Shown here piece after piece: positions 12,998-50,457 of a stretch of 64,000 nt of DNA. The notes under the pieces are model-generated. The model was not told the DNA's origin, made no database searches, and was given only the letters and a program-made list of their open reading frames with translations. The position numbers were made by a program, and so were the translations under genes. How positions within the stretch are numbered: the first letter of the stretch is position 1; each line of letters opens with the position of its first letter. This stretch comes from Nemopilema nomurai (taxonomy: Eukaryota; Cnidaria; Scyphozoa; Rhizostomeae; Rhizostomatidae): NCBI GenBank assembly GCA_003864495.1, contig PEDN01001356.1:682001-746000 (forward strand), read 5' to 3'.

Positions 12998-13943
12998 AGA
13001 GAGTTTACGAAACATGACGCAACAGGTCACGACGGCGCGTTGCAGCCAATTTCGCAACGCAGATTTTGGAATTTTGCGTCGTGAGGAAAACGTGGACAGT
13101 TTTGTTGTAAGTATATTATTTAGACTTATCGATTTAATTGAATTTGAAGATTTTATTCTTTTTGCCATCTGAATAATGTGTTTTTGTTCGATATTGATAA
13201 ATTTTCCAACTTTTATAGGATCATATACAAACAGTAGAAACTGCAGAATGAGCGAACAGGGACTCAACGAGAGAAAGAACCAAAAGTTGGTGAACATTGT
13301 AGTGTATATATCGTCTACAGCTGTAGAACATCATTAATTTGTGCAAAATTTCAAAACAAACGCCGATTCCACTTCAAGGTGTATGATAGGCCAGTACCAA
13401 ATGACTGTACTCCTAAATTATTCAAATATTATGTATGTGTAATAGGAAGCTTTTGGAATATGTTTCTTGGTGTTTTCTCCTTATTTTGTATAAAATAGGT
13501 AGAAGGTATTGTTTTGTATTCCAAATTTATTATCTATTTGTGTATATGCTGGCTAAGAAATTACAAAAACCCACCTTTTAGGGTATAAAAACCTGAATCT
13601 AAATTAGGATGGAATTTTGAGCAATTTTTGTCTTTATCCTTCAGCCAACATGAAATCTTTGTTATGATTAGAATATAAACTGTGGAAATTATAAGAAGAA
13701 CTTGGGATAAGATTTAACTATAGAGGCTTTCAGCCACAGCAGAATATATTTGTTATTTATAATAACATTCTATAACTACCATGAAGAGTGGCTTTAGTTT
13801 TTAAACATATATGAATGTAAATTTCTTTTGTTTAGGTTTTAGAGTATGCAAGTTTTGTCTATATAGAGATGTATTTTTGATTTGGTTAAGATTTGTTCTT
13901 ACTCTGTTTATTCTATTTCAATACCCTATTAATTAGGCCCAAA

Positions 13944-14662
13944 ATGATTTGGACCCTTGAGCACGACACACTGCTCTGTAGAGAGATTCTTGTTGAGGAA
14001 CCCTTCAAATTTAAACTTGATACTCGGGAGTGTGGTCACAGTTGGGACAAGGTGGCCAATAATTTAAATAAAATTGGACAACTACAATTTATGGTTGACC
14101 AAAGATCAGTCCGGGACCGTTTTCTAAAGTTGGAGAGGGTTTTTAAAAGAAAGATGGTGGAAGAAGAACGTGCTAGTGGTATCAGTCCACCAGAGCAAAC
14201 TGAATTGGACCTGGCAATTCAAGATATTATTGAGAGAGGCACTGAAGCACAAGCTGTAGCTTTAAGGGTTGGGGGGAAGTGGCTGAAAAGGAGAAAGAAA
14301 GTGCAGAATCTGTAAGAAAGCGATCCATGGAAAGATTGGCAGAAACAAGAGAGAGGGAGAGTCAGGAAAGAGGGAAGAAAAGAAAGAAGGCTGATTGTGA
14401 CAAGGACACTGAGGTGATGAGGTACATGAGAGAAAAGGCTGAGACTGAGGCCAAACTAAAGAGGGAAGAGCTTGAATTAAAGAGAAGAGAAATTGCAATA
14501 AAAGAAAAGGAAATGGAAAGAGAGTGGGAAGTGAAGCAGAGGAAGCTAAGGGCAAAGAGGGAAAGTGAAATGATGGCAATGTTTCAGCAGCAGCAGGGGC
14601 AAATGCAACAACAGAAACAGCTGCTGCTTGACGTTGTAAATAAATTGTTAGACAAAGCCTAA
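13944..14662 (+). pseudogene. Myb/SANT-like DNA-binding protein of Harbinger H1 (copy 1)
   Basis: The N-terminal part has the tryptophan-spaced Myb/SANT pattern (MIWTLEHDTLLCREIL, then GHSWDKVANNL, then SVRDRFLKLERVFKRK). In Harbinger elements this partner protein brings the transposase to the nucleus and the TIRs (family knowledge). The C-terminal part is a long charged coiled coil ending in a glutamine-rich stretch. A run of six G at about 14271-14276 replaces the seven found in copy 2 and shifts the frame between the two parts. An ATG at 14279 lies within the second part but is not the true start. Confidence 0.85.
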
Positions 14663-15427
14663 ATTTTTTATGTAACTATGATTCAAAAAGGTCCCTCTCT
14701 ATATCATCAACTTTTAAACAAGCCTCTCATCAATTCTCAAATTTGATGAAAACAAATTTCAACCTTTTTAAAAAACACATTAAAGCCTACATGGATAAAA
14801 CATCTGTTTACAGGTCTGTTATAGAGAACTAAATACTGGTTGGTTGATAAATTTCTTAAGTTGCAGCTTAGGTTTATCATTCTGTCTGCTTTATTAGGCA
14901 ATGGTCCTTCAAATAAAAGGAACTTTAAATTTGTGGCTTTGTGTAATTAATTTTCCCCCTGCTGTTTTAAATTCTTAAGCAAAAATTGTTTTCCCATTGT
15001 CAAAAAGTTTGCTGCTGTTAGCCAGTAAACAGTCCCATCATCCTTATTATTTTGATTATCCTTATTTCACTGTGAACTGTTAAAATTAATTTGTTAATCA
15101 AAGAGGAACCTTTATTACCTCTGTTTAACTTTGCAATGACTGCTATAATATCTATTCCTGGTTTTCTTTTTTCTGTAGTTATTTGATTTGATTGATTAAT
15201 TCGAGTAACATTCTTTTAAGTGAACACTTAATGTTTTTTTGAATTTTGCAGCATGTTTAAAATGTTTCTGCAATTATTTAGTATGCAAAATGGCACATAG
15301 CATTTTCAGTGGTGTTAATGGGATACCATAATAACTTTGGGAATGTGGTAGTTTTTAAAAAAACTGTTTATGGTATGTGGTTTTGGCTTCATCTTCCTGG
15401 TCTTCAAGTCTGTGGAATCAAGTAGAT
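14663..15427. other. Non-coding interior of Harbinger H1 copy 1
   Basis: The space between the convergent 3' ends of the Myb and transposase genes. It is AT-rich and matches the corresponding interval of copy 2 (46728-47490) in reverse orientation. No gene is seen. Confidence 0.7.
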
Positions 15428-16496
15428 CTACAAGAAATATTCATTAAGTGTTTGGGGCTCAACTTCAAAGAATTTTGCTGTGCTGTTGCCATACAAGCAT
15501 GTTAAGGCATTTCTTAACATTGCACTGACAACATAAAATTTCCCAACAGAACTGAGGCCAATCTTGAGATTCTTCTTGAAGTCCACAAACTTGAAGGAGT
15601 TGATTATGTCGCCAAACACCCACTGGACAGAAATACTGACTTGGCTCATTGATTGATTAAAAGCCAGCTCATCAGGCATGAGAGCAGCTCTTCTAGCAAC
15701 AAGCGTTGTAGGTGAACACGATGCGGGTAAGCAGGATCACCATATATGCAGAGAGCTACACCATCTGGGGAAAAAGAGTGTTGTTCCAACTGCTCCAGTA
15801 GACCAGACATGGCAAGCAGTCTGCTGTCGTGTCTTCTACCTTCAACGGGCCCAAAAAGGTTTGCAATCATACCATTTGGAGCAATAACAGACTGAAATTT
15901 GAGTGCATGAACCCTTCTGTGCCCATTGTAGACAGCTCTCTGATTCCTTGTTGGCCTGCATATGGGCCTAACTGTGCCGTCAACAAATCCCCAGCAGTTG
16001 TCCAATGCAGCACCTTTATTATGAATCGCATCAGCAAATGACTGGAGATTCTCTCTTGAAAGCCATGGCTGGTTTAGGTTATCGAGTAGATTGGAAAACC
16101 TGTCGTATATGTCATCAACCACCAAGTTGAAAATCATGCAAAGTTGAGGAACAGGTCTTCCGAATCGTGGGACTAAATCCGTGTACCGACAGGGATACGT
16201 GAAACGCTTCAAACAGACACAAAGCGCTTCGACGGGGTCTACAATAACACCATTGTAGCAACGGTAAACTTCTGGCAGATGAAGGGCTTCAACAAGGTTA
16301 TAAATGTCCTGTTTTTGAAGCGCATTTCAACAGAGCATTCCTCGTCAGCCATATCTTCCAAGCTAAAACGTTCATATTTAAAATATGGAAGCTCTAAATG
16401 AGGATTCGCGTTGTTTGCGTTACCATGATGTAATAAGAGGTAATCATCTTGATCTTCCATATTTTCCTCGAGCATGACGAATAAATTGTTCGCCAT
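15428..16496 (-). pseudogene. PIF/Harbinger DDE transposase H1 (copy 1)
   Basis: Starts at the ATG complementary to 16494-16496 (MANNLF). It contains the Harbinger catalytic core: WGFVDGTVRPICRP with the first D, YGDPAYP with the second D, and the segment that carries the E in ISVQWVFGD. In copy 2 that last motif reads ISVEWVFGD, so copy 1 has lost the catalytic glutamate (E to Q). There are also two frame changes, one in an A run near 16325 and one near 15700. The product cannot be active. It converges on the Myb gene. Confidence 0.88.
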
Positions 16497-16657
16497 TTTG
16501 GCAGCTTTGAGTGAAATGAATTTTGGTGCCAAGCTACAATGCGTTGTCACCGGCGCGTTGTGAAACGTGACTAGAAAAAGACAACGCATCGGGCTAACTA
16601 GATCCCATACTTCCCCAGCTCGTCGTGATCTGACGCGTCGTGTTTCGTAAACTCTCT

Positions 16658-17045
16658 AGTGTCTTGTGATGGTGAAATTTGGGGCTTGGAAATCAAATGT
16701 CCTTTCTCCAAATATAATTCAAAGCTGGAGGAGGCACTTTTGGATAAGAATTTTTTTTTGAAGATTACTGAAGGTGAAGTCAAGTTAAAGAGAAGCCACA
16801 AGTATTATTACCAAGTTCAGGGCCAAATGTTTTGTGCTGATATAATGAGAACTGATTTTGTTGTTTGGTTTGGTGATGGAGAACCTTTGTTTGTTGAAAC
16901 CATATTTTATGACGAGAATTTCATGTCCAAGTTTGTTTTGCCTCAGTTAGAGTTTTTTATTGCCGAGCTGTTTTGCCAGAATTTTTACAAGAAGAGTCGA
17001 ACGTGGTCTTTTGTTATATTTGCAAGGTGGTTGGAAGAATTTTGA
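16658..17045 (+). pseudogene. YqaJ-like nuclease gene, 3' half
   Basis: Frame open from the TIR edge: CDGEIWGLEIKCPFSKY carries the LEIKCP motif (E and K) of YqaJ/lambda-exonuclease-fold nucleases, and HKYYYQVQGQM supplies the conserved glutamine. It ends at TGA 17043-17045. It has no start of its own: the first bases (AGT) are the target duplication of H1. The codons continue exactly from the gene half at 49239 on the minus strand, which ends LGASLDGI. The gene was cut by H1 and then separated by an inversion. Confidence 0.88.
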
Positions 17046-17445
17046 AAAGAGAAAGTCTAAGTGGGATTAGTAATATCATAATAAACATCTAGCATATCAT
17101 CATTTAACAGCAAGCCATCTGGAAAAGATTGACATTCTCAGAAGTAATAATAACAGATATATATATATATTCTTGTTTTATGCAACCAAATCCGGCCTCA
17201 TTGAGCAGTATTTACAGTAGTAACTTTGATATATTCTTATTCATATTGTAAGTAATGTTATTATTAATACTATGAATATCAATATTTTATTTTCAAGTCC
17301 TATACTGAGATGGCCTTTAACCAAGATACATTTCAGAAAAATTGTTTGACAGTGGTGATAGGCTAATTATACATTTCTTCGTAATACTTTTTGAAAACAC
17401 TATCAGGTCTACTAAGAGGGTTATTTTTAAAGTAAGGAAAAATTT

Positions 17446-19096
17446 TCAAGGAGGAGAAACCAAAAATGGCTGGAAATTAGTCAAAAGGCAACAGACAGAA
17501 AATTTTTTATTTAAAAGTGTTTGCAATGTGAGTGGCATAACTCCATCAAGAATATGGAAGTTCTTTACACGTCCAATAGCCCTCTCAACATGTATCCTTA
17601 CAGAAGCAATACGAGCAGTGTCTTCTACTTCTTGAGCAGTTAGCTGTGGTCGACTACCTTTGAAAGGAGGGATGTTGAGAGTAACACCAGCAGGAAGAAT
17701 ATCAGAAATATCAAACCCTCTATCAGCCATAAGATTATCACCATCTTCCAAAAGCTCCAAAATACCAGACTTTGCAGTAATCTCTTTGTCAGAAACCCTT
17801 CCAGACCACAGTTTAGAAACAAAAGTAATACAGCCAGTGGGAGAGATGCCAATCAATGCTTTCCAGGTATTGTGATGTTTATATTCAGACCAAGTTTGGG
17901 ATTGAGATTTGAGAGATGATGGAACTTGAGAAAATATTTCAGTACAATCAATAATCATTCTAGTTGTGGGGTATTCTTTAAATTGTTCAGGCATGTTATT
18001 TCTGATTCGTTCTTGTGATGGAAATGGAAATAGAAGAGGGAGTTCATGAAAAAGAAAATTTATCCAAGTAGTGAATATTTTAGACGCATGACCAATAGAA
18101 ATTCCAAATCTGTCTGCCAGATCATTCATGAATAAGCCAACTCTCAATCGCATCAATACTAATACAAATTCTTCTAGATGGCTGAGGCTACGGAAAAGGA
18201 CCAGGCTTTGATGAAGTACTAGTTTGTTGGTATGAAGGATCAGGGTTTCTTGTAGACTTTGGACCACGCCAGTATTGCACGCGCTCTAACTTAGGCTCAA
18301 AATATTCGAAGACAGCATTGAGAGATCCAAAATTTGGAAGTCCTGTGTAAAATTTAACTGCAGCATTATCATTCTTCAATTTTTCAATAGTAAAAAGGGT
18401 GCTTTTCAGTTGTGCTAGTTGCTGTTCAAGGTCAAGAACTTGTTGTGTTAAGGAAGTGACAAATAACGCCAGAGATTCATGATGCTTGCACACATTCAGT
18501 AGATCATTCTCTGTAGCAACATCATCAGGACATTGAAGATCAGGATCAGATAGGTTACCAGTGGCCTATGGAATGCAAAGCACAGAATTCACATAAGAGA
18601 AATCTGTTTGAGTAGAAACTGAAACAGTCGTTGACAAACAAGCATGATCAGAAAGAGATGAATCTTCTTCGCCAGGATAGTCAGGTATATAAGATGCACT
18701 AGCTGATGAAGGCATTAATTGACGTTTAGTTGGAGACTTACAGGATGGCTTTGCTGCGCCATGGAGATGCAACGACGGTACAGCACCTTGCCTCAGAGAC
18801 CAATGATTCGGATTCTTCTTAATATCGGAATCCAAAAAGTGTTTATCACAAAGAAAGGTACTGTTTGTGACGTTAAATCCATCCATTCCATCTACACGCT
18901 TTATGCGATTGCACCACAAAGACTTGGCTGGATTGGCTTGAGGAAATTTGAAAAAGTGATGGCCTGAAGGCAAACCGTCAGTTTGGTAGAAAGTGTTGTA
19001 GCATTCATAAGCGGCGCACTGTCTTCCAAGAGATCTCTTTTTCTTTCTCGATTCATTTTCTTTACCAGAAACTACTTTATTCTTCATTTTAGACAA
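17446..19096 (-). pseudogene. THAP-domain DDE transposase of the ISL2EU-type element
   Basis: Starts MSKMKNKV at 19096. Residues 20-115 form a THAP zinc finger: CAAYEC, then FFKFP, a W, LCDKHF and GAVPSL. A coiled coil follows (18493-18400, LTQQVLDLEQQLAQL), then a DDE_Tnp_4-type domain with IIDCTEIF (D), LMADRGFD (D) and [11 protein letters not shown] (E). All three catalytic residues are visible. A TAG at about 18566-18568 separates the THAP part from the coiled coil, and the frame changes near 18195. It is therefore inactive although little eroded. It is transcribed away from the 64-bp TIR. Confidence 0.85.
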
Positions 19097-19172
19097 GTAG
19101 ATTATTAAAAAGCAAGTAAAATGATGAACGATACAACCTTACCAACAGTCGTCAAAGCACACTAAAGATGTG

Positions 19173-19236
19173 GAACATCAATAGCCTCGTTTTCGATTAC
19201 AACGCCGTGCGTGCTACGTCATCGTGAAAAAGGCTT
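19173..19236. repeat. Terminal inverted repeat of the ISL2EU-type element (end 1)
   Basis: Aligns without gaps to 50541-50604 with about ten mismatches in 64. Both copies now run in the same direction, although TIRs must be inverted. AT follows (19237-19238). Confidence 0.88.
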
Positions 19237-19813
19237 ATTGTACACAATTTTCTAGTTCTCAACCGGTCTACAAATAGGTCTGACTGTGCCGTCGATGAAA
19301 CCCCAGCAGCTATCAAAGGCTTGACTTTCTGGAAATACTGCATTGGCATACCCTTAAAGTTGCTCTGTTTGCAGCCACTGCTGTTCAAATGTCATCGGAA
19401 AATGCTAAAATGAATCTGCAACGTGACGCATGATCTGATTTGATATCAAGCAGAGTTCATAGTTGAACCTTCCAATGCGTGATATCATGTCACTAAGACG
19501 GCACAAATATGAAAATCGTTTCAAAATATACAGAGGCCCTCAGTTTGGCTTGCAACCGTCCCTTTCACACAAACTATCATTTCTGGTACTTTGATAACCT
19601 TCGCGATTCGAGGAATATCTTGCTTTTCGAAACGAAATTCTAAGATACACTCATCCTCATTCATTTCTTCCAATGCAAATCATGGATATTTCCAGTAAGG
19701 AAACACTGGTGCTTTATCTTCCCTTTTTTTTAATGAAACATAAACTCCTCTTCGTCAACAAGGTCTTCACTGTAGAGGTAAGCTGCTACTTCAAAAAGCT
19801 CATTAGACGCCAT
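19237..19813 (-). pseudogene. Harbinger H2 transposase, 5' fragment
   Basis: On the minus strand the fragment starts MASNELFEVAAYLYSEDL at 19813. It runs through NEDECILEFRF, RIAKVIKVPE and AFDSCWGFIDGTVRPICRP (first catalytic D) and breaks at KIVYN where the ISL2EU TIR begins. Several stops and frame changes mark decay. The next residues (HKRVHALKYQ) are at 50610, 31 kb away on the plus strand. Further pieces lie at 50605-51283 and 62678-62773. Confidence 0.82.
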
Positions 19814-19937
19814 TTTGTTTATTTGTGTGGGGTCGTCCTCGTTTTGTGGGATCCTGTGGCGACAACCACTTATAGATCCCAGACTCCATCGCGATAGATC
19901 TTTGTCATCATCCTTGTTCTCATCTTCAATCTAAACC

Positions 19938-20319
19938 TCCCTATTGTCATTTCTGCGACAATGATCTGGCTGCTTATAAGTCAGAATTAATTGCCCATAC
20001 AAGAACCTTGCTTCGCATCAAATTGGCAAAGAAAGTAGAAACGAAGAAATCATTGGACACTTTTTTTGAGTTAAAGAACGCTGAAAAAATTAAAGCGGAA
20101 CTAAATACTGTTGCATTAATAGCAAGAAGAAATTTGCCGCTCAACTTCTTGGATCATTTAATGTAAACACTTCACTATGTAGCAGACGATTCAAAAGCGA
20201 TCAACATTACCTGTAACAGAACAAAGGAAATGTATTTGTTAACTGAATGTCTTGCAGTTGATGCCAATGAAACGTTGAAAGAGGAAATGAAGAAGTCCAA
20301 AGGATTCTCCAATTTCTGA
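19938..20319 (+). pseudogene. hAT-type transposase fragment
   Basis: Begins with a BED-finger remnant (YCHFCDNDLAAY, then an H in LIAHTRT). It continues into the helical region seen before the hAT catalytic domain (LPLNFLDHL, then DSKAINITCNRTKEMYLLTE). A TAA at 20164-20166 interrupts it and it closes at 20317-20319. No catalytic domain follows. Related in type to the hAT pseudogene at 44.1-46.0 kb. Confidence 0.5.
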
Positions 20320-20875
20320 ATCTCTTTTCTCCCAAAGTTGAAGCCATCGTTTTTCTTGTTATCAAGCATCACCTGGCGTATACAAACCAATTAATCCCAA
20401 AATTTTGACTCTGCTGGGGCAATCATTTCGTTTTTATCTGATACTGGCGTTGGCAGTATTAGTCGATAATTTTTGAAAATTGATTCAATATTCCTTGATC
20501 GCGACTTATTTGCGATAGGCGTACTTTGTAGAATATCTACATTCGACTCTGAGAGGGTTGCAGAACACATAGCAAACGATTCTGATGCCATTTCCTTCTG
20601 CTAACCTATCGTGTCGCAAGAATGAGTAGCAGCAAGATTATAGAAAGGAAGGAAGGAAGGAATTTAGATTGGAAATTCCGGGGCAGAACTTGCCTTGACT
20701 GGACAAGCTGGGCAAACTTCTGGGCAAGCTATTTTGGTCATCGACATTAAAGTTCTACACGTGTTCCGAAGGAAGAATTTCCATACGAAAGATATTGAAA
20801 TGTCGAAGCTCATTCTTTCAAAACGGTAAGTTGAAATGAACTTGAGAGCAAATGGGAAAACTTTATGTAGCTAGC

Positions 20876-21077
20876 CAGGGACGCCGAACGACCGAGGGGA
20901 TAATTCTAAGCTACCAACAATTCTTTCGTTAACTGTCATTTTGGCATGTTGTCACGAATAATGCAGTACAGTCAGAATTTCATATGAATCATTTCATGAT
21001 TACAAACGGCCGACGTCAATGGCACTTCTATCAAAGGGCAACAGGGGCGGTTGACCACCACAGCTCCAGCGTCCCTG
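20876..21077. mobile_element. Non-autonomous hAT-type MITE, 202 bp
   Basis: Ends are CAGGGACGCCG and CAGCGTCCCTG, inverted repeats with the CAGGG start typical of hAT elements. It is flanked by a perfect 8-bp target duplication TAGCTAGC at 20868-20875 and 21078-21085. No coding capacity. Confidence 0.88.
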
Positions 21078-21261
21078 TAGCTAGCAATTACTGGTAATAA
21101 AATAATATTTGTGCTATGCTTCATTTTAACTCACCACCCTTCCGTTTAGTAAAGGAATTTTAATTTCTGTCATTGATCTTTAAGGTTGACTGAAAATAGA
21201 GTTAAAGATTTTCTCAACCCAACATCCTCTATACATTCCAACCCTGCTTACTCTAAATTCT

Positions 21262-21650
21262 CGAATTGCCCCCCCCCCCCCTCGAAAAAGCCCACCTCTC
21301 GAATAAGTCCCCACCCTAGAACTACAAATTTTCAATAAGCCCTCCCCCTCGAATAAGCCTCCCTCTCAACTTTTTGATTTTCGACTCCTGAGGTTGCCTT
21401 TGTCATCTTAGTGGATTATCACAAAAAGTTAGTAACTTAATCAAATGCTACCTTATATTTAGATTTTTTTTTATATTATGAAAAGAAAGAAATTTAAAAA
21501 ATTATCTTTTCATGTGACATGTTTCAGGTAATTTTATAAGCCCCCCCTTTGAACAAGCCCCCCCCCTTGAACAAGCCCCCCCTTCGAACAAGCCCCCATC
21601 CAAAAATATCAAAAATAAATAAGCCCTTAGGGGGGCTAATTCGAGGATTT
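21262..21650. repeat. C-rich degenerate tandem repeat
   Basis: Irregular units of the form TCGAATAAGCCCCCC or TTGAACAAGCCCCCC, densest at 21538-21600. Interrupted by an AT-rich piece around 21400-21530. Confidence 0.75.
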
Positions 21651-21771
21651 ACGGTATTATATTTTTATTGAGTCTCATCGCCTAATTCCCGTTTTTATCT
21701 TTATCGCTCTGTCCTTTTCATTCCAGGATTGAGGAGAATTTTGTGTTTGATACTTCAAAGAGAGGTAGATC

Positions 21772-22887
21772 ATGGGTGGAAAAAATTCCAGTAAAAGCCT
21801 TAATAAGGAAAGCAAGAGAAGCTTTTCCATTAGAGAAAATTCACGAGAGGAACCTTGGACTTGCAATAAAAAAGTATTTCCTGAAGTAAAGCATCAACAT
21901 ACAAGAGGTGACCCGTATATTTATTATAGGTTAAAAGAGAAAACGACTGTGGTGGAAAAATCTCTTGGTGATACTGTCGACATTGGAAAAACTGATTTTT
22001 GTTGCCAAGTCGTGGAAAATTACGTTCACAGTTTTCCAGACAATGTCTATTCTGAAATCCCAAAAGACAGATCTCTTGATCGAGACATGTTACTTGATAT
22101 TCCTGTTGGGGTTGGGGGTATAATGCTTGGCAAAGGAACTTTCTCTTGCGTCAAAATGATGGAATTCCGAAAAATTTCAGTTGCCGTAAAAAAGTTCAAA
22201 GAAATACCTGAATTCACTTTGAAAATGATGAGAGAGCGAGCTTTGGGAGAAGCTAGGACATTGATAAACATTAGCCCTCACGAGAGTATACCTATGCTGT
22301 ATGGCATCATAATCAATTCAAGACCATTTGCCTTAGTAATGCAACTTTGTACTCAAAACAATCGATGTTTAACCTTATTACGCCTAATAAGGAATGGTAT
22401 GCTAGACATTGATGAAATGTCTTCGCTACAAATCATTACAAAGTTGGTGGCAGCTCTACAACATGTTCATCAGAATGGGTTTGTGCACAACGATTTAAAA
22501 GTTGACAATGTCGCATTAATGAGAGTTAATGAAGGAAGTGGTAAAAGAGTTTGGATCCCAATCATTTTGGATTTTGGAGAAGCAACAAAAATTAGCATTT
22601 GCTTCAAAAGGCGATATAGATCATTCCATGTGCACATCGATCCTGCAGTATCGAGTGGAAGAGCATCGCATTCGGTACAAAGTGACACTTTCTCGTTAGG
22701 AACCATCTTGAGGAGCTTGGCACAAATTATCGGTAACCAGCACTTCAAAGAGGGCTTGCTTGAATTAGCTGAATTATGTGTAAATGCTGAAGAAAGACTT
22801 TCACTTCCAAATTTAAAAAAAATCTGTGCAGTTTGTTGCCTATATAGCGAGTATACGATAAAAATTGTTGTTCTGTTCTGTGAATGA
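21772..22887 (+). CDS. Protein kinase-like protein
   Basis: An uninterrupted 371-codon frame. Kinase landmarks: glycine loop GKGTFSC at residues 120-126, the VAIK-type lysine K140 (AVKKFK), HNDLKVDN at 239-246 with catalytic D241 (HND in place of HRD), DFG D267, and SDTFSLGTIL for the F-helix. The expected APE is replaced by PAVSSG. In-frame stops precede the ATG. However, a different frame from about 21727 to 21885 also reads like protein and is preceded by an acceptor-like TTCCAG. The true N-terminus may therefore be an upstream exon joined after a one-base shift. It is the best host-gene candidate here; function unknown. Confidence 0.72.
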   Translation: MGGKNSSKSLNKESKRSFSIRENSREEPWTCNKKVFPEVKHQHTRGDPYIYYRLKEKTTVVEKSLGDTVDIGKTDFCCQVVENYVHSFPDNVYSEIPKDRSLDRDMLLDIPVGVGGIMLGKGTFSCVKMMEFRKISVAVKKFKEIPEFTLKMMRERALGEARTLINISPHESIPMLYGIIINSRPFALVMQLCTQNNRCLTLLRLIRNGMLDIDEMSSLQIITKLVAALQHVHQNGFVHNDLKVDNVALMRVNEGSGKRVWIPIILDFGEATKISICFKRRYRSFHVHIDPAVSSGRASHSVQSDTFSLGTILRSLAQIIGNQHFKEGLLELAELCVNAEERLSLPNLKKICAVCCLYSEYTIKIVVLFCE

Positions 22888-24073
22888 AAAAAGTAAAATC
22901 AGCCTCAATTTTTTACTGACTCTTTTCTATTTGAAAACTAAAGGAATTGGGGGAGGGGGCATGGGAGCTCACCCCCCCAAAAAAACACGAAAATAAGGCC
23001 TTCTCGCGAGGCAAAGCTGATCTTCGCAGAGCAAATTTTTCTACCAATGGATCTGCTTTATTTTTAATCTTGTATAAATGTAGTGAGAAGGTAGTTTATG
23101 TTTGGAAATTATACGTTCCAAAAGTAACACGATAAAGACTGCCAGTCGCGCGAAATAGGAATTGCCAGCGGTAGTATGGGCTGGAGGGACAAGAATTGAT
23201 TTTTTGGTTGATTCTGGTTTTCTTTCACTGTAGAATTAATGTTGCTCGTTGTCAGAAAACTGAGATAAAAACAAGGAAAACTAACGGGGCGCTGCCTCAC
23301 AGCCTTGTGCCGGAGGAATGATTAAACTCACAACTGTGCGTTTTACGATTTCATTGATATAATATAGCTGTAGAGTTATAAACAATTCTGTTCATACAAA
23401 ATGTTAATTTTTGCAGATATATTACGTGTGGAAATTTCAGGTCTCTGTTTTAAGAAGTTGTAGGTGTCTGTTGGCTTTGGCACAAAGAGGTGGCGATTCC
23501 CACCCCTTTCTGTAAATTTATTGCTATATCGAAGAAATTTATATTTGAGAGAAATGAGAAAGCTTCAAGAATATATTTATGCTCAAAAGAAATATTTCTT
23601 GGGAATATCGAGGGTGGAAAAAATTTGTAGTATTCTAAATATGCTTAAAAAAAATAAATGTTGCAAATTATTCAGTGGGAGCTAAAGCCTTCTTCTATCC
23701 CGCTCTGCGGTCTATGGGTTTATTATGTATGCTTTTAATGTGCTTCCTCGGTGTATCCAAGCGTTTAAGCTCTGTATCTAAGTGGCTGGCTTGTTGCGAT
23801 GCCTGCGGGTAATCTCGTCTTCCAAGTGCATTCTGTATGTTTCTAAGTGCTTTCTCGGTGTATCCAAGTGTTAAAACTGCGTATCTAAGTGCCACGCTTC
23901 GATGTCAGTGTCATAGTGTGATAGAACAGTATAAGCTTTCAACTCGTCTGCGGGAAATTTCATGTTTTTTTGGCGGGAACACCCTTTAAAAAGTGCGTGG
24001 GAAAGTTTCAAGCATGCACTTAGCCCTTCGCTAAGTTCGACGAAGTTATCTTTGTTTCTCCAACGATTTTGTG
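22888..24073. other. No gene recognised; contains a short internal repeat
   Basis: AT-rich. Two related segments of about 45 bp at 23739-23784 and 23848-23892 share CTCGGTGTATCCAAG and GTATCTAAGTG. They make a 66-codon minus-strand frame (23895-23695) repeat LGYTEKAL-like words. No family is recognised. Confidence 0.45.
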
Positions 24074-24184
24074 ATGAATTCGTTTGTCGTTTTGGAAAGA
24101 CTGGTATTAGAATGTGAGAATGTAAACAACCCAGCGGCTAGAGGAATTGCTACAAAAAATGGATCTATTTCTAAAGAAAACCTG
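24074..24184 (+). other. Possible first exon, unknown gene
   Basis: ATG at 24074 opens 37 codons (MNSFVVLERLVLEC) ending at a good donor, G|GTAAGT at 24185. It may belong to the DUF7869-like gene downstream, but nothing in the sequence proves the link. Confidence 0.25.
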
Positions 24185-25834: not shown

Positions 25835-26243
25835 TGTGGGGCGGATCCAGACGTTAGCAACCTTTGCGCGAGCATAAGTCAGATTTCCTCAAACAATTTC
25901 CTTTTGCATCAATTCGCTTATGTCAATAGCCTATTCCAAAATTCTATCGCGTTCAAACTCCCTTTGAAAATGTCAACAATAGCCCTTGCGATTTCCTTTG
26001 TTTCCGTTTTGTGAATGTGACGCATTCCAAGCAGAAAACAGGGATCAAAGCCTTTCTTAGATTTTATTGTATGATTTTAGCGCTGACCACTAACAACAAT
26101 TTTGATCATATGACCAAAAATAGAACAATAGTATTCACGTAGAAGGGGTGTGGCCTTTATTTTAGAAAGCCTGAAGGGCGTGACTCTAAACATTTTCCCT
26201 TCCTTTCCTGTAGTCAGATTTCTCTCTGAATCCGCCCCTGACA
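25835..26243. mobile_element. MITE-like insert, hAT-type ends
   Basis: Left end TGTGGGGCGGATCCAGA (25835-25851) and right end TCTGAATCCGCCCCTGACA form imperfect inverted repeats. The target duplication is not clear. Located in an intron of the DUF7869-like gene. Confidence 0.5.
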
Positions 26244-37213: not shown

Positions 37214-37394
37214 ACTGTCCCTTGTTGTGACAATCTTGTATCATAGCATTGTTATACAGAAATAAAATAGCTATTTAAAAATTATTGATTGAAATTAATC
37301 TAATAATGCTCAAACTAAATATAATTTGCCTTAAATATTACAAATGTACTATATATATTTCACCAATCTAATACCTCAATAAATACCTCTTCTA

Positions 37395-39920: not shown

Positions 39921-42900
39921 AATGTGAAGGTAAGTAAATAGGTTTGCTGAGACAATGCAACTGCTCGATATACACGTTGAGATATTTTTGCCAGTACGGC
40001 ACATTAACATTGCCTTTGACTGAATCCCATCGTATATTCTTTGCCATGGAAGGCTCATAAATGCAATCAAATATTGTCATAAAAATTCATTTTCATAAAG
40101 GCCTGCACATTGTTTCAAGGGTAAATTTGAATTCATTGGTATATTAAAATACATAAATCCTAAAAAGTTTTTGTAAAATGTCCCTTCTATTGGTTCCATG
40201 AAGTAAAGGAATATTTTTTGGCATAAAGATTTTATCTTGTATTTTGGATCTCGTTAATTATCTTAGCCTGCTACCAATTAGAACTGAACATACCTTCTAT
40301 GCTTTTTATCAACAAAGACCATTCAAGTATGTTATGTCGATATAAGTGGATGATATATCTGGCTTTAAAAACGAACACTTTAGCTTTTTTAACATTTATA
40401 AGAATGTTTTTATATAATCTGAATATAATCTGAAAACATGCTAGATGATAGAAATAATATGAAATTGATCTTCTCGTTGATTTGACTTACAGGTTATTGG
40501 GAATTGCAGATCATTCGTATGATTTCCACCCGTTTTGCGTTACCAATATTGTAATCTCCATCGATCAAGATTTCTTGTTCTCTGACTGTGAATTCCTTTA
40601 TTTAGTAAAGATTTTTCCTGTTAGATTTTGAACAAGCAAACCCTAATGACAATTTGTGCATTTAATGGGCTATACTTAATCATGGAAGGTATACATATTA
40701 GAGTGTTAGAATGTTGTCTTATTAGCTGATAGATTCCATCAGCATTGATGATTTATTATAACATTTTTTTTTCTTCAAAGTAACTGAGAATTTGTGCTTC
40801 CTTGAAAAAACGTCAGAAATCTATTTCTGTCGAACAACAAACCAAATAACTTTTTGTTTAATGTTAGAAACTAATATTGCATGGACAAATATTTAAGGTT
40901 GAGTAGCCTTCTGTGGTCGGTAGTTCAACTCTCTTGCTAGACATGAAATATTGTGGAGTGGTACCTGAAAAAGAACGGCACGATATTTTTTGCTACTTTC
41001 ATCAAATAAATATATAAATCTCCATTCAATTTGTTATATTATTGTTATGATTGAAATGAGTTACGAAATGAAGCTTTGCTTATTTGTGTGTCCATTTTGA
41101 GGTTAGCATCAAGAGCTGGAAATATCAATTAAAGGTCAAACAAGTGGTTTTTTGAACACGGTACCTTTTACGCCCTATATTGAAACGAATGCAATTAGAA
41201 TACGTTTTGCTGCCAGGTGGCAATCAATTTTTGGTTATTTTCACGTTTACCCTTCAGAAGGACCTTCAGAAAAGGGACGTTCGATTTCTCCTAAAATTTT
41301 GTTACTGCCGTTATGTACAATCGGAATTTTTCAGCTTTGGTCAACGTGTTGTCAACGCCACAGCCTAGCGAATCCAAAACAGAATATATGGAGATAAATG
41401 TGTAGGTAAAGAAAACCAAAGCACAAAAGTTGAGCTTTCTGGACATAAGTGGTGAAAAACTTCCTACGATATCTGCAAGAAACAGATATTATTTTTTAAA
41501 GACTAAAACTTGATAGTAGCCTAACAGGAATTGTTCTTATACTTGATAATTTTGTTTCATGTTGACTGAAAATCTCTAAATCTTATTCTTGATTCTAGAT
41601 CCTAAGCTGACTTTTTAACCTACCATTTTAACAACCATTTGTGTCATTTCAAGTTGACTAAAGTCACACATAAACCATTTTGTTGATGATGTAAATCATT
41701 TACTGAAATATGAAAGAAAAGACAAAGCAACTATAATGAAGACATAGTTATCAGCATCTGTTACAAAACCTTCATCATACATCTAATTGAATGCTTCAGA
41801 TAGTTGATTAGGTGCGATAATATTTTGATTAAAATGTTTTGAGGGAGCCAAAATGAGTACATGCTTTGTGACCTTACGCACGAAAAAAATAATCTATTTT
41901 GCTGAAGGCAGGACCTCGTTTACTAGTGTTGGTTTAAAACATAAACATCGAGATCAAATAAATATTTTACCTTAAGTTGTAAGCAAAAACCAAAAAGCTT
42001 TTGTCAAGCAGACGATCATGTGGCAATACTGCAATACTGCATTAGCAACAGTTCTTCAGATGTTCGGCATTTCTCTATTATCTGCCAAATCGTGTGGTCG
42101 CCAATGAACAATGTTTTGTTTTCTAACACTCATGAAATGAAAGGGTGCATCGCCTACATTGCACCAATGGTCCCTCGTTGGAAGTGGCAATACAGCCTAG
42201 CTTTTTCGGGCCTGCACAGACTTTTGACCAATTTGCTTGTCCAAAGCTATCTTTCCCTTTGTCAGATTGCGACTTCTGTGCTCTGGTATCTATCAAGATA
42301 ATTGATAAAACGAAGCCACGATTTTCAGTGAATTTAAATGCCTTACAATCTCCAGTAGCAGAGTCACGTCCCACCCCACCTGCCAGGATCAATTTTCTAT
42401 TTTGTCTTGGGGGAGGGGTAATATTTTGGCAACATCCTTTTTTGATGTAATCCTAGCAGAACCAAACTGACATTACATAAGCAAAAGTTATTAAAGTGGT
42501 TGTTTCTTCCGAGTAATTTGGCATACCTTTTCAGTAGTGGCGTTCCTAGTGGCTGGCGCCGTTTATTATAGAAAAATATTAAGAAAAGATGAAAATTGTA
42601 AAAATCAGCAAGCAACGATGACAATTAGGAAATCAGCAAACACATTAAAAATGTTCATACCTCGAGAAAATAGCAAAGGAATGAAATGATTGAAGACGTT
42701 CGAATTTTCTCCCTTAATGAAGTAAATATGGCACTTCACATCCACAGACGGCTGACACAAACATGGTGCGATAATGCCAGAATAAAATTTGATGTCATCT
42801 TCCTAAAGCTGCATTCACATTTATCACGGTATAATGTGTCACACTGCGGCATGATGCATCAAAAACGCGTTGGTCCTGTTCACACTTGATGCGTTCTCTT

Positions 42901-42930
42901 CCTAGCGTTTTTCTGTAATGGGTGTAAACA
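39921..42930. other. No gene recognised
   Basis: About 3 kb of AT-rich DNA. Frames up to about 100 codons (for example near 42145-42450) have no recognisable motif or codon pattern. Confidence 0.5.
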
Positions 42931-43935
42931 AGACGACGTTCTGCTAGCTCTGGCCTATCGAAATCGATTGATTGCTTTGAATTTATTGGAGAAAGGCAAA
43001 AGAAAGCGGTTATCTAGGGTAAGAGAATTATGGAAATACAGAGAACAACAAGGCCACTTTGATAACTTGGTACAAGAGATGAGGGTAAACGACCACTCTA
43101 TACATTTCAATTTTTTCAGAATGCTTCCTTCTACTTTTGACGATTTACTCAAATTAGTTGGACCTGTGCTGCTTAAAAAGAAGAGCCGATTTCGGGAACC
43201 ATTATCCCCAGCATTGAGGCTTGCTGAAATTCTTGATGATATCCCTGAAAAAAATCTGTCGATCTTATGTCTAATTTCAGTACCTGTTCCTCAAGATCAA
43301 AATGCTTGGAAAAGGATCGCAAATAATTTTTGGAATCTATGGGGTTTTCCTTTATGTCTTGGTGCTGTTGATGGAAAACATTATGTTGTTGTTGGCGCAA
43401 ACAACTCAGGCAGTGCATTTTTCAATTACAAAGGGTCTTTTCCGTCGTTTTAATGACTGTTGCAGATGCAAGCTATATGTTCACTTTAGTAGATATCGGA
43501 GACTATGGCAGACAGTGTGACTCTAGTGTCTTTAATAATTCCAATTTTGGTAAGGCATTAATCGAAAACAGTCTGGGAATTACCGACAGTGACTTTTTGC
43601 CTGCCACAACAGTGAGTAGCAGGTACTGTTTTATTGGACATGAAGCATTTCCTCTTCGGGAAAATTTGCAACGCCCCTTAAGAAGGGTTTACCAGAGAGC
43701 TTAAGAATTTAAAACTATCGACTTTCCAGGGCTTGCAGAGTAGTGGAGAATGCTTTTGGCATACTCTCAGCTAGATGGAGATTTTTGAGAGCACCTATTC
43801 AAGCTCAGCCTGAAAAGCCAGTAAAAGCATCCTTGCAGCTATAGCCCTACATAACTGGCTGAAAAAGCACGATGACAGTCAAAAAGCGTACGAAAGTATT
43901 TACTGCCCCCCAGGTTACATTGATTATGAAGATCT
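42931..43935 (+). pseudogene. Third Harbinger (HARBI1/ALP1-type) transposase
   Basis: Reads DDVLLALAYRNR, then MLPSTFDDLLKLVGP, NFWNLWGFPLCLGAVDGKH (first catalytic D), NSGSAFFNYKGSF, ADASYMFTLVDIG, EAFPLRENLQRP and [15 protein letters not shown] (catalytic E), ending LHNWLKKHD. The usual GDEAFPL motif reads GHEAFPL, so the second acidic residue is lost. The frame shifts near 43445 and again near 43700, and part of the helix before the catalytic domain is missing. It belongs to a different Harbinger lineage from H1 and H2. Confidence 0.85.
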
Positions 43936-44126
43936 GGGCTCTCACTTTCAAGGATTTTTCTTTAGACTAAGGAATTTTGGATATTTTTAAGGAATATATG
44001 TTTTTGAGGATTTTTTAAGGAATTTTCCAAATTAAGAAATAAAAACAAAATGATAAATAACAAGATATTAAACAGAACAAAACTACACAAATATACTATG
44101 CAATTGCTGGCACTGCTGTAAAAGTG

Positions 44127-45984
44127 TCAATTTTTGGCAATTTTAGAAAGTTCGTTTTTAACAATTTCATGCGCTTGACTATCTGTCGCATTGCTTTTTA
44201 CTTTCTGCACCAGTTCTAATAGCATACCATCCAGCTTGATTTGGTGTGCATGAATTCCCATTGCCTTCATGCTTTGATTGGTGTGCATTAAACCAAAAAA
44301 TGTTTTTACCAGCTTCAAAAAACTGAACAAACGCTGAACAGATGCATTTGAAAAAGGTAATGAAAATGCCGTTGCTACCACTTTTCTCAAGTTTGAATAC
44401 TTGTAACCGCCGTTAAGCATCTTAGCTTCAAGTCGGTTTTTCCAAAAAGCTGTTGAGGTTTGATTTGGTAGAATATCGGTGCCCTCTTCCAAAGCTTGCT
44501 GCCTCCATTCCAAGTCTGCACGGCTACTGTCTGCTACAGTTCTTAAAAATGGCATCAGGGTGAATGCATCTTGAAGCGATGGAGGCTTGCATTGGACGGC
44601 ATTTGATGGCAGTAAAAATTCTACACATCTGAATACTGGCTGGTTGACTTCAAAGCGCTTTCTGATTTGCTTGGCAAACTCAATCAGGAGGGCAAGGCAC
44701 GAACTTCTCACTTTCAGAGCATTCTCAATGTCACTGCATGAAGATAATGTGCTGGTAGCGTTTATGCCGATATAGACATCTTTCGGCGGAACATGCTTTG
44801 ACTTGTCTACAAACTCTATCGTTAAGGGGTCACCTGCTCTTATGACTTCTAACTTCAAAAAGTCTTGCATGATGCTTCTCAACAGTTTGACAACTTCTGC
44901 TCGAAGATGATGCAGCATTGGTTCTGTTGTTTGAAACATTGTGTTAAAGTTGTTGAGCCGGTGTAATTGGTATTGCATAAATTCTAGCTGCGCTTGAACA
45001 AACGGGTTACGTAATGCAGTTAGTATTGACTCAGTTGTGTAGGATTGATCTTTACCATTTACAATAAAGTCTGTAAAGTAGAGCTGTAAAGCAGCCCATT
45101 GCTCCAATATTCTTGAAATGCAACTTTCTCGGGACAGCCATCTGGTTTGACCACAGCGCAGGATTTTGTGGGGTTCGGCTTCAACAAACTCTTGAAATTG
45201 CTTAAGTTCTTTTTGTCTCAGAGAAGATCTTGAATAATGGGCATAAATGTTTCTGCAAAGATCTTAAAGTGAGGTAGAAAGCTTCAAACATGCACGTGAA
45301 GCACACAGATGTATCATGTGGCAACTACATTTTATTGCCACAAGACCAGGAATGTCTTTTGACACCAGCATAGCTAAGCCATTAAATTCGGCAAACATCA
45401 CATTGCAGGTATCAGATGAAAACCCTATAATATTACTTATTAGAATACCTTTCCCTTCAAATGCTTGCTTAATTGCTTTGTGCAGTCCCATAGCACCCCC
45501 GTCTTCAACAGAAATCATGTCAAAAACGTGTTACTGGCGTAAATTCTACTTCATCCATGTACATTATGCAGATGCCAAGTTGCTATTCAGAAGAAATGTC
45601 AGTACTCTCATCAGGAATAATACTGAACTTGTGGCTTTGCAAAATATTTACCAGCTGCTTGGTATAATATAAGCCAGTTTCTTGTCGAATCACATTTAAG
45701 CACTTTGTTGCTGCCATGTGCTTTTCTTTAAGACTACTGCTTTCTTTGCTGTCTTTTAAAGCTCTTGCCTTTATTAGGTTCAGAAGCGGCTCACTCAAGG
45801 TCACTGGCAAGTTATTTTCCAAAATTAATGACGCAATTTGCACCGCTGTGGCTTCTTTATATGTGTTTTTTTCTACTTTATCTTGAATGCAAGCTGTAAG
45901 ACTTTTCTGTGTTGCTGTACTCAAAGCTGCCTTCTTATGTTGTGATGTTCCGCTATGTCTTTGTAGAGATGTGTTTGAACAAGA
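44127..45984 (-). pseudogene. hAT-family transposase (BED/DUF4371-like)
   Basis: On the minus strand the gene opens within a BED finger (CSNTSLQRHSGTSQHKKAA) whose first cysteines are lost at the junction with Harbinger H1 copy 2. PDESTDISS (catalytic D region), IIGFSSDTCNVMF, KCSCHMIHLCAS and TRWLSRESC follow. The long intact part (45107-44127) ends with the hAT dimerisation motif SNASVQRLFSFLKL. A stop near 45583 and a base loss in a T run near 45520 break the frame. A further frame change lies near 45260. Dead, but only moderately decayed. Confidence 0.82.
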
Positions 45985-46727
45985 CACGATTCGGAAGACC
46001 TGTTCCTCAACTTTGCATGATTTTCAACTTGGTGGTTGATGACATATACGACAGGTTTTCCAATCTACTCGATAACCTAAACCAGCCATGGCTTTCAAGA
46101 GAGAATCTCCTGTCATTTGCTGATGCGATTCATAATAAAGGTGCTGCATTGGACAACTGCTGGGGATTTGTTGACGGCACAGTTAGGCCCATATGCAGGC
46201 CAACAAGAAATCAGAGAGCTGTCTACAATGGGCACAAAAGGGTTCATGCACTCAAATTTCAGTCAGTTGTTGCTCCAAATGGTATGATTGCAAACCTTTT
46301 TGGGCCCGTTGAAGGTAGAAGACACGACAGCAGACTGCTTGCCATGTCTGGTCTACTGGAGCAGTTGGAACAACACTCTTTTTCCCCAGATGGTGTAGCT
46401 CTCTGCATATATGGTGATCCTGCTTACCCGCATCGTGTTCACCTACAACGCCCGTTTGCTAGAAGTGCTGCTCTCATGCCTGATGAGCTGGCTTTTAATC
46501 AATCGACGAGCCAAGTCAGAATTTCTGTCGAGTGGGTGTTTGGCGACATCATCAACTCCTTCAAGTTTGTGGACTTCAAGAAGAATCTCAAGATTGGCCT
46601 CAGTTCTGTTAGGAAATTTTATGTTGTCAGTGCATTGTTAAGAAATGCCTTAACATGCTTGTATGGCAACAGCACAGCAAAATTCTTTGAAGTTGAGCCC
46701 CCAACACTTAATGAATATTTCTTGTAG
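45985..46727 (+). pseudogene. Harbinger H1 transposase (copy 2), 5'-truncated
   Basis: Open from the junction (FGRPVPQLC) to TAG at 46725-46727 without a frame break. It holds the complete DDE set: WGFVDGT (D), YGDPAYP (D) and ISVEWVFGD (E). It lacks the N-terminal 110 or so residues present in copy 1. The ATG used by the reading frame (45909) lies in hAT DNA and is not native. Confidence 0.85.
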
Positions 46728-47490
46728 ATCTACTTGATTCCACAGACTTGAAGACCAGGAAGATGAAGCCAAAACCACATACCATAAACAGTTTTTTTTA
46801 AAAACTACCACATTCCCAAAGTTATTATGGTATCCCAGTAACACCACTGAAAATGCTATGTGCCATTTTGCATACTAAATAGTTGCAGAAACATTTTAAA
46901 CATGCTGCGAAATTCAATAAAACATTAAGTGTTCACTTAAAATAATGTTACTCGAATTAATCAATCAAATCAAATAACTACAGAAAAAAGAAAACCAGGA
47001 ATAGATATTATAGCAGTCATTGCAAAGTTAAACAGAGGTAATAAAGGTTCCTATTTGATTAACAAATGAATTTTAACTACAGTTCACAGTGAAATAAGGA
47101 TAATCAAAATAATAAGGATGATGGGACTGGCTAACAGCAGCAAACTTTTTGACAATGGGAAAACAATTTTTGCCTAAGAACTAAAAACAGCAGGGGGAAA
47201 AATTAATTACACAAAGCCACAAATTTAAAGTTCCTTTTATTTGATGGACCATTGCCTAATAAAGCAGACAGAATGACGAACCTAAGCTGCAACTTAAGAA
47301 ATTTATCAACCAACCAGTATTTAGTTCTCTATAACAGACCAGTAAACAGCTGTTTTATCCATGTAGGCTCTAATGTGTTTTTTAAAAAGGTTGAAATTTG
47401 TTTTCATCAAATTTGAGAATTGATGAGAGGCTTTTTTAAAAGTTGATGATAAAGAGAGGGGCCTTTTTGAATCATAGTTACTTATAAAAA

Positions 47491-48236
47491 TTAGGCTTTG
47501 TCTAACAATTTTTTTACAACGTCAAGCAGCAGCTGGTTCTGTTGTTGCATTTGCCCCTGCTGCTGCTGGAACATTGCCATCATTTCACTTTCCCTCTTTG
47601 CCCTCGCCTCAAAATCTTTTTCTTTAATTTTTAGCTTCCTCTGCTTCACTTCCCACTCTCTTTCCATTTCCTTTTCTTTTATTGCAATTTCTTTCCCCTT
47701 AATTAAAGCTCTTCCCTTTTTAGTTTGGCCTCAGTCTCAGCCTTTTCTCTCATGTACCTCATCGCCTCAGTGTCCTTGTCACAATCAGCCTTCTTTCTTT
47801 TCTTCCCTCTTTCCTGACTCTCCCTCTCTCTTGTTTCTGCCAATCTTTCCATGGATCGCTTTCTTACAGATTCTGCACTTTCTTTCACCTTTTCAGCCAC
47901 TTCCCCCCCAACCCTTAAAGCTACAGCTTGTGTTTCAATGCCTCTCTCAATTATATCTTGAATTGCCAGGTCCAATTCAGTTTGCTCTGGTGGACTGATA
48001 CCACTAGCACGTTCTTCTTCCACCATCTTTCTTTTAAAAACCCTCTCCAACTTTAGAAAACGGTCCCGGACTGATCTTTGGTCAACCATAAATTGTGGTT
48101 GTCCAATTTTATTTAAATTATTGGCCTCCTTGTCCCAACTGTGACCACGCTCCCGAGTACCAAGTTTAAATTTGAAGGGTTCCTCAACAAGAATCTCTCT
48201 ACAGAGCAGTGTGTCGTGCTCAAGGGTCCAAATCAT
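47491..48236 (-). pseudogene. Myb/SANT-like protein of Harbinger H1 (copy 2)
   Basis: Same protein as at 13944-14662 (MIWTLEHDTLLCREIL, GHSWDKEANNL). The seven-G run that copy 1 lost is intact here, so the SANT domain and coiled coil are in one frame. A GAA-to-TAA change near 47703-47705 then ends the coiled coil early, after KLKREEL. Copies 1 and 2 carry different disabling changes, so both were inactivated after separation. Confidence 0.85.
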
Positions 48237-49238
48237 TTTGGGCCTAATTAATAGGGTATTGAAATAGAATAAACAGAGTAAGAACAAATCTTAACCAAAT
48301 CACAAATTCATCTCTATATAGACAAAACTTGCATACTCTAAAACCTAAACAAAAGAAATTTACATTCATATATGTTTAAAAACTAAAGCCACTCTTTATG
48401 ACAGTTATTGAATGTTATTATAAATAACAAATATATTCTGCTGTGGCTGAAAGCCTCTATAGTTAAATCTTATCTCAAGTTCTTCTTATAATTTCCACAG
48501 TTTATATTCTAATCATAACAAAGATTTCATGTTGGCTGAAGGATTAAGACAAAAAATGCTCGAAATTCCATTCTAATTTAGATTCAGGTTTTTATACCCT
48601 AAAAGGTGGGTTGTTGTCATTTCTTAGCCAGTATATACACAAATAGATAATAAATTTGGAATAAAAAATCATACCTTCTACCTATTTTATACAAAATAAG
48701 GAGAAAACATCAAGAAACATATTCCAAAAGCTTCCTATTACACATACATAATATTTCAATAATTTAGGAGTACAGTCATACACCTTGGTACTGGCCTATC
48801 ATACACCTTGAAGTGGAATCGGCGTTCGTTTTGAAATTTTGCACAAATTAATGATGTTCTACAGCTGTAGACGATATATACACTACAATATTCACTAACT
48901 TTTGGTTCTTTCTCTCGTTGAGTCCCTGTTGGCTCATTCTGCAGTTTCTACTGTTTGTATATGATCCTATAAAAGTTGGAAAATTTATCAATATCGAACA
49001 AAAACACATTATTCGGATGGCAAAAAGAATAAAATCTTCAAATTCAATTAAATCGATAAGTCTGAATAATATACTTACAACGAAACTGACCACGTTTTCC
49101 TCACGACGCAAAATTCCAAAATCTGAGTTGTGAAATTGGCTGCAACGCGCTAGATTGGAAATTTATGCGAAGACCGCGCTAGTTCCCAAACTTCCCCAGC
49201 TCGTCGTGACCTGTAGCGTTGTGTTTCGTAAACTCTCT

Positions 49239-50457
49239 ACTATTCCATCCAACGAAGCACCAAGGTATGGACGACACTGAGAAACCTTCAAACCCACCTC
49301 CTCAACATTAACATTATAACCTTTTTCATAAAGTGCTTTACAGTAAAGATCTCTAACATGTCCTTCAAACTTGTTACCATGGTTAGTGCTTGCTGAATGA
49401 AATGGAGAATAAAACATTGACTTTAGTTTGGATGATGGTTCCACCCTGTTGACTGCAGCTGAATAAAAATTAGAGGCAGTAATTCTGTACTTCCTTTGCT
49501 CCATCCATTTCTTATTGAGGCTTTGACCAGATGTCGACTGTTCAATGGCATGTATTTCTTCAGGAGTGGCTGACATGTTCTGACAACAGATATCCATCAT
49601 TTCTTTAAAAGAACTAGTTGAAATATCATAGAAATCAGAAAAAGCACTGTCTGAATCAGAAAGTTCAAAATCTTTGCTTGATGAAGTGGTTGGTTGATTT
49701 GGTAGAGAAATAGAAGTTTCCTTGTCATGAAAACCAAAGTAGCAGCTGTTAGGAATTAGTGAAGAAAGTTTTGATGTCAGAATGACAACACTTTCCTAAT
49801 TCACTTGTTGATCAGCAATGGCTCGTGGATCATAAATATTATATTTGGAAACCTGCGATTGATTACTATTCCAAATTTGATCTTTTTAATGACAACTTCA
49901 TCTATTGGCATTGGATACACAATTTGAGATGCACTTGGGACATTCCAGGAGGACACCATTGAAGTGCAAGAAACTGGTTCAGGACATTTCTGCAAACCTT
50001 TCCTGTTGAAATCTTCCAAAGCAAACAAAACTGCACCAACATGATTACAGTTTCCAAAACCTCCCAAACCCATACCAGCAGGACACGTACATGCAGCAGC
50101 CAGTACATCACCAGAAGTGTTGGAATTTTTTAGAAAAATTTTATAAAGAGTTCTTATCATAGAAGCCTTTATGCGCACATCAAAAAAAGTGAAATTTTGA
50201 TCTCTGGCAATATCAATCTTTCTGATGAAACCTTCATAGAAAAAATTGAATGCCTTGAGCTTCTTGTATGCAGTGCTCTTCATTAAAATATGCTTGAACT
50301 TCTTTGTGCGAATGACAAGATATTCGTAATGCTGGATAAAATTAAATGTTGGTGTTCCTCTGAGGTCAGGTGTCCATAGTAGATTCGAACAGAACTTGTT
50401 GAAAAAAATTGATATGTCCAAGCGTCGATATAAACTGATCCATAGTTGAAATTTCAA
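49239..50457 (-). pseudogene. SWIM/YqaJ gene, 5' part
   Basis: From 50457 leftwards the frame carries a SWIM-type zinc finger (ACTCPAGMGLGGFGNCNHVGA, around residue 125, pattern CxC...CxH) and CTSMVSSWNVPS. A one-base shift near 49835 and a TAG near 49797 separate it from the YqaJ N-terminal region (WMEQRKYRITASNF, GNKFEGHVRDLY with the conserved E, then RPYLGASLDGI). The codons stop exactly at the H1 target duplication at 49239-49241; the remaining half is at 16658-17045. In related elements the YqaJ gene accompanies the DDE transposase; its role in transposition is not known to me. Confidence 0.85.

Follow-up and report, generated by a model that had tools for sequence, protein, structure and literature searches.

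The window analyzed here is a 64,000-nucleotide stretch of the genome of the scyphozoan Nemopilema nomurai (contig PEDN01001356.1, positions 682,001 to 746,000), which carries two oppositely oriented copies of a DNA transposon, H1. At the ends of these copies an ISL2EU transposon and an older transposase gene, H2, are each divided into two halves, and we probably see in this arrangement the product of an inversion between the H1 copies. The window corresponds to C143:682001-746000 in an assembly of 212.9 Mb and 226 contigs, in which contig C143 measures 774 kb; labels such as C37, C53 and C143b denote elements on contigs of the same assembly. The analysis covered this single assembly.

Copy 1 of H1, at 12998-16657 on the forward strand, has both ends, and copy 2, at 45985-49238 on the reverse strand, retains the left end only and is missing 488 bp at the right end. 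Self-BLAST aligned the copies in opposite orientation over 3174 columns at 95.9% identity including gaps; 83 of 3127 ungapped bases differ (2.65%), and the longest exact match is 182 bp. With the terminal repeat of H1 read as AGAGAGTTTACG, the ends 12998-16657 and 45985-49238 fit exactly, and the element has a length of 3.66 kb. Pfam searches identified a DDE_Tnp_4 domain in frame 15646-16212 (reverse strand) of copy 1 and frame 45909-46727 (forward strand) of copy 2, and gave no match for the second H1 frame (13893-14315 and 47703-48287). Just inside the left end, at 13034-13035, copy 1 is without 51 bp that are present in copy 2, C37 and C143b; C1 is without 41 bp there. Contig C143 holds four of the eight H1 elements that gave matches longer than 500 bases with identity above 90%, namely the window pair and those at 423-434 kb and 294-305 kb.

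Analysis of the H1 ends revealed 3-bp target duplications of the form ANT when the end is read as AGAGAGTTTACG. The two control elements with both ends carry matching duplications (AAT/AAT in C37 and AGT/AGT in C143b), and elements with a single readable end carry ATT (C1 and C89) or AAT (C143c and C45); the exact end motif was absent from the two C136 pieces searched. A TA duplication was dropped in favor of ANT after comparison with the ISL2EU relative on C53 and with other H1 copies. The TWA duplication of PIF/Harbinger elements was not found, with C37 and C143b both displaying ANT and no shift of the ends yielding a TWA that matches on both sides. Published Pangu elements have ANT duplications, terminal repeats of 11-40 bp that usually start with AG or GG, a length of about 3.5 kb and two frames, one coding for a DDE transposase and the other with no known domain (PMC4482050). 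Because of its ANT duplications, its AG-starting ends, its length of 3.66 kb and its DDE frame accompanied by another frame that Pfam did not match, H1 appears to fit a Pangu-type member of the PHIS superfamily and not a canonical Harbinger, as the first-pass annotation of this sequence had named it. It differs from Pangu in the similarity of its ends, which extends up to 61 bp (C37) compared with 11-40 bp in the published description as cited.

The 3′ half of a YqaJ gene lies directly to the right of copy 1 (16658-17045, forward strand). It is followed by an ISL2EU transposase frame with HTH_Tnp_4 and DDE_Tnp_4 domains (17446-18267, reverse strand), a THAP-domain frame identified by Pfam (18566-19096, reverse strand) and the inner terminal repeat (19173-19236, forward strand), where the element ends at 19236 and a target duplication AT follows at 19237-19238. 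The 5′ half of YqaJ is located outside copy 2 (49239-50457, reverse strand), and beyond it the outer terminal repeat (50541-50604, forward strand) ends the element at 50604, followed by AT at 50605-50606. Frame 49163-49600 (reverse strand) matched positions 1-103 of the YqaJ profile PF09588 (E = 7.7e-07), and the related PF01771 better (E = 3.8e-12). Frame 16659-17045 (forward strand) matched positions 107-148 of PF09588 (E = 0.0018) with 19 bits, under the family cut-off of 22. The two terminal repeats (19173-19247 and 50541-50614) show 85% similarity and now lie in direct orientation; their alignment scores 52, whereas 1000 shuffles gave at most 15.

The identification as ISL2EU is consistent with published features of the group, which targets A/AT/T sites with duplication of AT (PMC4482050). 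The window element has this duplication in this site, the ends of its relative on C53 also fit (CAAT..ATTG), and HTH/DDE, THAP and YqaJ sequences are all present. It differs in that the THAP domain and the HTH/DDE transposase occupy separate open frames and in that H1 insertion followed by the flip has divided the element, together with its YqaJ gene, into halves. The contig as a whole is also rich in YqaJ matches. One of these (C143:296017-296451, profile positions 2-149) has a piece of the H1 copy C143c on either side; here the nesting is the other way round, with a YqaJ-bearing insert lying within H1.

A further pair of halves lies outside the ISL2EU ends. The 5′ half of the H2 transposase pseudogene occupies 19237-19850 (reverse strand) and the 3′ half occupies 50605-51330 (forward strand), with a DDE_Tnp_4 domain in frame 50936-51415; the outer limits of both are approximate. 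The halves rejoin around a 2-bp AT in one frame (..CRPVEN(stop)KIVYN(stop)HKRVHALKY..), in which two stop codons near the join were kept as found. The join site is A/AT/T (CA/AT/TG), the target published for ISL2EU.

Removal of H1 and one AGT likewise brings the two halves of YqaJ into a single frame through the domain (..SLDGIVSCDGEIWGLEIKCP..). The C53 relative reads ..SLDGIISCRSEKWGLEIKGP.. at equal length, with no residue gained or lost at the join; aligned to it, the halves need no gaps and abut at one common residue. This relative carries no interruption where H1 inserted, yet it is frame-shifted about 40 codons upstream, and in the window, too, the gene sequence preceding the YqaJ domain sits in another frame. 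The first-pass annotation had proposed that YqaJ is divided between the right flank of copy 1 and the opposite strand outside copy 2, and that flipping the interval between the inverted copies would reunite it around one H1, restore the ISL2EU terminal inverted repeats and rejoin H2. The split arrangement was confirmed, and the inversion reading is well supported. It had also counted the three split features as independent; they do agree, but YqaJ, the ISL2EU repeats and H2 are nested shells around one junction, with three exact join points that record one event. We consider it likely that this event was an inversion between the opposed H1 copies by non-allelic homologous exchange, which split the nested ISL2EU and H2 sequences.

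Four queries were then run against the assembly: the YqaJ 3′ half plus transposase, 2589 bases long; the 5′ half of the same gene, of 1375 bases; and the halves of H2, of 753 and 716 bases. No second copy of any of these halves was found in the assembly, the window being the sole match to a full query. Among first-look candidates, 40 of 100 were scored for the YqaJ 3′ half, 40 of 54 for the 5′ half and 8 of 8 and 19 of 19 for the H2 halves, and more distant copies may for this reason have been missed. Other ISL2EU matches among the candidates scored were 66-81% alike over parts, and other H2 matches were pieces of at most about 200 bases; a tally over all four halves gave no more than 76% over parts, or pieces no longer than 104 bases at 76-98%. 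In the same set, each ISL2EU half had the elements on C53 and C87 among its three best relatives, and the remaining one of the three differed between the halves (C133:2373387 versus C133:2200866). As far as this assembly can tell, the two ISL2EU halves thus appear to belong to one element. Two 22-kb contigs, C213 and C214, have ISL2EU matches at identical positions and are perhaps two haplotypes of one locus.

Two other origins of the halves were considered. Unrelated paralogues, raised in the first-pass annotation as a source of the YqaJ halves, were rejected because no second copy of either half was found among the candidates scored, and no complete YqaJ-H1-ISL2EU composite was found elsewhere in the assembly. 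Composite elements can move or be duplicated, and two copies of an ISL2EU with H1 inside might each have lost the complementary half with no inversion at all. Such a history requires two separate losses to have stopped precisely at ends of H1, however, and it is at odds with the lack of a second copy of either half and of any listed match to an ISL2EU half beside another H1 copy. We regard it as extremely improbable.

The target duplications were compared between the two H1 copies. Copy 1 has ATT on its left (12995-12997, forward strand) and AGT on its right (16658-16660, forward strand), a mismatch not seen in the control elements, and the right duplication equals the AGT outside copy 2 (49239-49241, as read on the reverse strand). 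The YqaJ site with a single AGT has the same length as in the C53 relative. As far as the duplications are readable, this is the exchange expected for an inversion between two insertions, an argument that is weak by itself.

To relate the copies to each other and to other H1 elements of this genome, a tree was built from seven sequences over the region 13470-15650, with partial copies gapped, and two constrained trees were compared. Copy 1 fell into a group with C37 and C143b that excludes copy 2 (ultrafast bootstrap support 98%). Forcing copies 1 and 2 to be sisters was 18.4 log-likelihood units (lnL) worse and was rejected by the approximately unbiased (AU) test (p = 0.019). Seven sites set copy 1, C37 and C143b apart from copy 2 and from every other copy readable there. 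Pairwise, copy 1 and C37 differ at 45 of 3131 bases (1.44%) and copy 2 and C37 at 69 of 3152, which places copy 2, too, closer to C37 than to its partner in the window. Copy 2 is not like C143c overall (102 of 2583 bases differ) and branches just outside copy 1, C37 and C143b. The two copies thus differ in ancestry, and since copy 1 groups with C37 and C143b and the sister-copies tree is rejected, they most likely represent two separate insertions, with the second copy not made by the inversion.

These results also bear on the idea that the inversion itself generated the second H1 copy, through staggered breaks with fill-in or insertion of a hybrid element, so that both copies derive from the one in YqaJ. 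The location of inverted copies at both breakpoints agrees with this idea, and hybrid insertion is described as resembling ectopic recombination save that the copies are identical (PMC2775673). Two sites (13858 and 13888) are, moreover, exclusive to copies 1 and 2. The copies are nevertheless not closest relatives, with 1.44% difference between copy 1 and C37 compared with 2.65% between copy 1 and copy 2, and together with the AU result (p = 0.019) this makes such an origin very unlikely.

The position of the exchange was examined with a crossover profile, in which both parental elements were rebuilt for each possible exchange point and the likelihoods compared. The profile, based like the tree on H1 copies of this genome with partial copies gapped, excludes the first 37 bp and the 51-bp gap of copy 1, and gap columns at 13034 were left out of the site count, as C143c is without sequence there. 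The best position was 13170, and positions 13034-13423 fell within 0.9 lnL of it; positions 13470-15247 were worse by 4.4 to 13.9 lnL and positions 15274-16043 by 2.1 to 3.6 lnL. Neither sliding identity nor trees built for the left part and the right part on their own gave a crossover position. The profile points to an exchange near the left end of H1 or, less well supported, near its right end, and disfavors the middle. The flipped length depends on this choice and ranges from about 29.8 to 36.2 kb; the inversion of about 33 kb described in the first-pass annotation is therefore supported as an inversion, but its length is a range.

A left-end exchange cannot be distinguished in this profile from no exchange within the compared part, and for this reason an inversion made by transposase retains some weight. 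The outer left ends of the opposed H1 copies would then have served together as the termini of a single composite transposon, about 36 kb in size, that was excised and reinserted in reverse, with copies that are not chimeric. The profile value without exchange (13034, 0.61 lnL below the best) nearly equals that of the left-end crossover, the same target duplications would be expected by our own reasoning, and inversions by alternative transposition have been published for maize (PMC8225341). Excision would, however, have to be followed by reversed reinsertion at exactly the same place, whereas homologous exchange across inverted DNA that is 97% identical over about 3 kb requires no such event, and no case involving a PHIS element was found in the literature surveyed. 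We judge the transposase explanation possible but unlikely. If true, it would mean that PHIS-type elements can invert DNA in place without a homologous crossover.

Several observations weigh against homologous exchange between the H1 copies. No sequence switch was demonstrated inside H1 when chimerism was looked for. Across 13470-15650, 17 substitutions and two indels have the C37/C143b state in copy 1 and the C143c state in copy 2 with no switch, and site 13103 shows the opposite pattern to these sites. A model without any exchange in the region compared (13034) is just 0.61 lnL below the best, and the two sites exclusive to copies 1 and 2 count on the same side. The duplication evidence is narrow in that the ANT pattern leaves the middle base alone informative and the inner duplication of copy 2 is lost. 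Finally, no uninverted chromosome was seen in the one assembly. The segment may instead have been joined the wrong way round at the H1 copies during assembly, with the real chromosome uninverted, and a misjoin at inverted repeats would look identical. Yet the longest exact match is 182 bp, and the whole repeat, within a 774-kb contig, is 3.7 kb, a length that long reads would span if they were used; we find such a misjoin quite unlikely. Homologous recombination between the H1 copies, proposed in the first-pass annotation as the simplest mechanism, keeps that standing, but we infer both that the exchange was homologous and inside H1, and when it took place.

Under inversion by homologous exchange, the locus would have formed in four steps. 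ISL2EU would first have inserted into the older H2 transposase gene at CA/AT/TG. A Pangu-type H1 (Y) would have inserted into the YqaJ gene of ISL2EU, duplicating AGT, and a second H1 (O) of a slightly different sublineage would have inserted about 30 kb away in opposite orientation, with ATT as its left duplication; these two insertions may have occurred in either order. Non-allelic homologous exchange between the H1 copies would then have flipped the intervening segment, leaving copy 1 with the left flank of O and the right flank of Y, and copy 2 with the left flank of Y and the right part of O.

The right end of O is missing, and the copy runs into another gene at a microhomology junction of its own, which may have formed earlier or later than the flip. 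This gene belongs to a 5′-truncated element at 43933-45987 (reverse strand) that abuts copy 2 where the latter breaks off; we take the element to be hAT-like, although Pfam gave no match. The junction with copy 2 is a 3-bp GTG microhomology (45985-45987) common to both parents, which is of the end-joining type and separate from the H1 ends. A copy of the hAT-like element on C45 retains the gene start missing from the window. A reunion at the other breakpoint, with the hAT-like 5′ end in the left flank of copy 1, was not found, and the piece of the second hAT-like copy matched the window at 43933-45987 alone.

Other features of the window were also recorded. A protein-kinase-like frame (PF00069, 4.4e-20) is located at 21772-22887, inside the flipped segment. 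A direct repeat of about 775 bp (60256-61030 and 63225-64000; 98.7% identical, 2970 bp apart) presumably corresponds to the reverse strand of a long interspersed nuclear element (LINE) endonuclease frame, which it resembles by eye. A second direct repeat (1-129 and 3232-3360; 98.45% identical) flanks frames that we assume, by eye, to be retroelement-like; frame 157-1572 had no Pfam match.

Transposon-mediated inversion is a known way of chromosome rearrangement, and the window is a clear new example. The closest parallel is provided by the Galileo inversions of Drosophila buzzatii (2j, 2q7 and 2z3), which likewise have opposed copies of one DNA transposon at both breakpoints, exchanged target duplications (here as far as readable) and further transposons around the breakpoints. 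Exchange of target duplications is described for Galileo, and for 2z3 the copies were shown to be chimeric and uninverted chromosomes were sequenced (PMC2775673). The case examined here differs in that the order before the flip is deduced from the transposons that were divided. In Anopheles, PIF/Harbinger miniature inverted-repeat transposable elements (MITEs) occur in breakpoint regions of X-chromosome inversions and ectopic recombination was suggested (PMC11122324). That system resembles ours in having PHIS-superfamily copies at breakpoint regions and in the suggested mechanism of ectopic recombination between transposons, but differs in that several transposon families are involved and, in the account cited, no copy pair is tied to the event. 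The literature surveyed contained no report that traces an inversion to paired copies of Pangu or any other PHIS element. In the N. nomurai window the event is readable from one genome, with nested transposons serving as a before-and-after record in which three join points are resolved to the base. Split transposons could be read in this way across whole assemblies, which may allow transposon-mediated inversions to be counted without a second genome.

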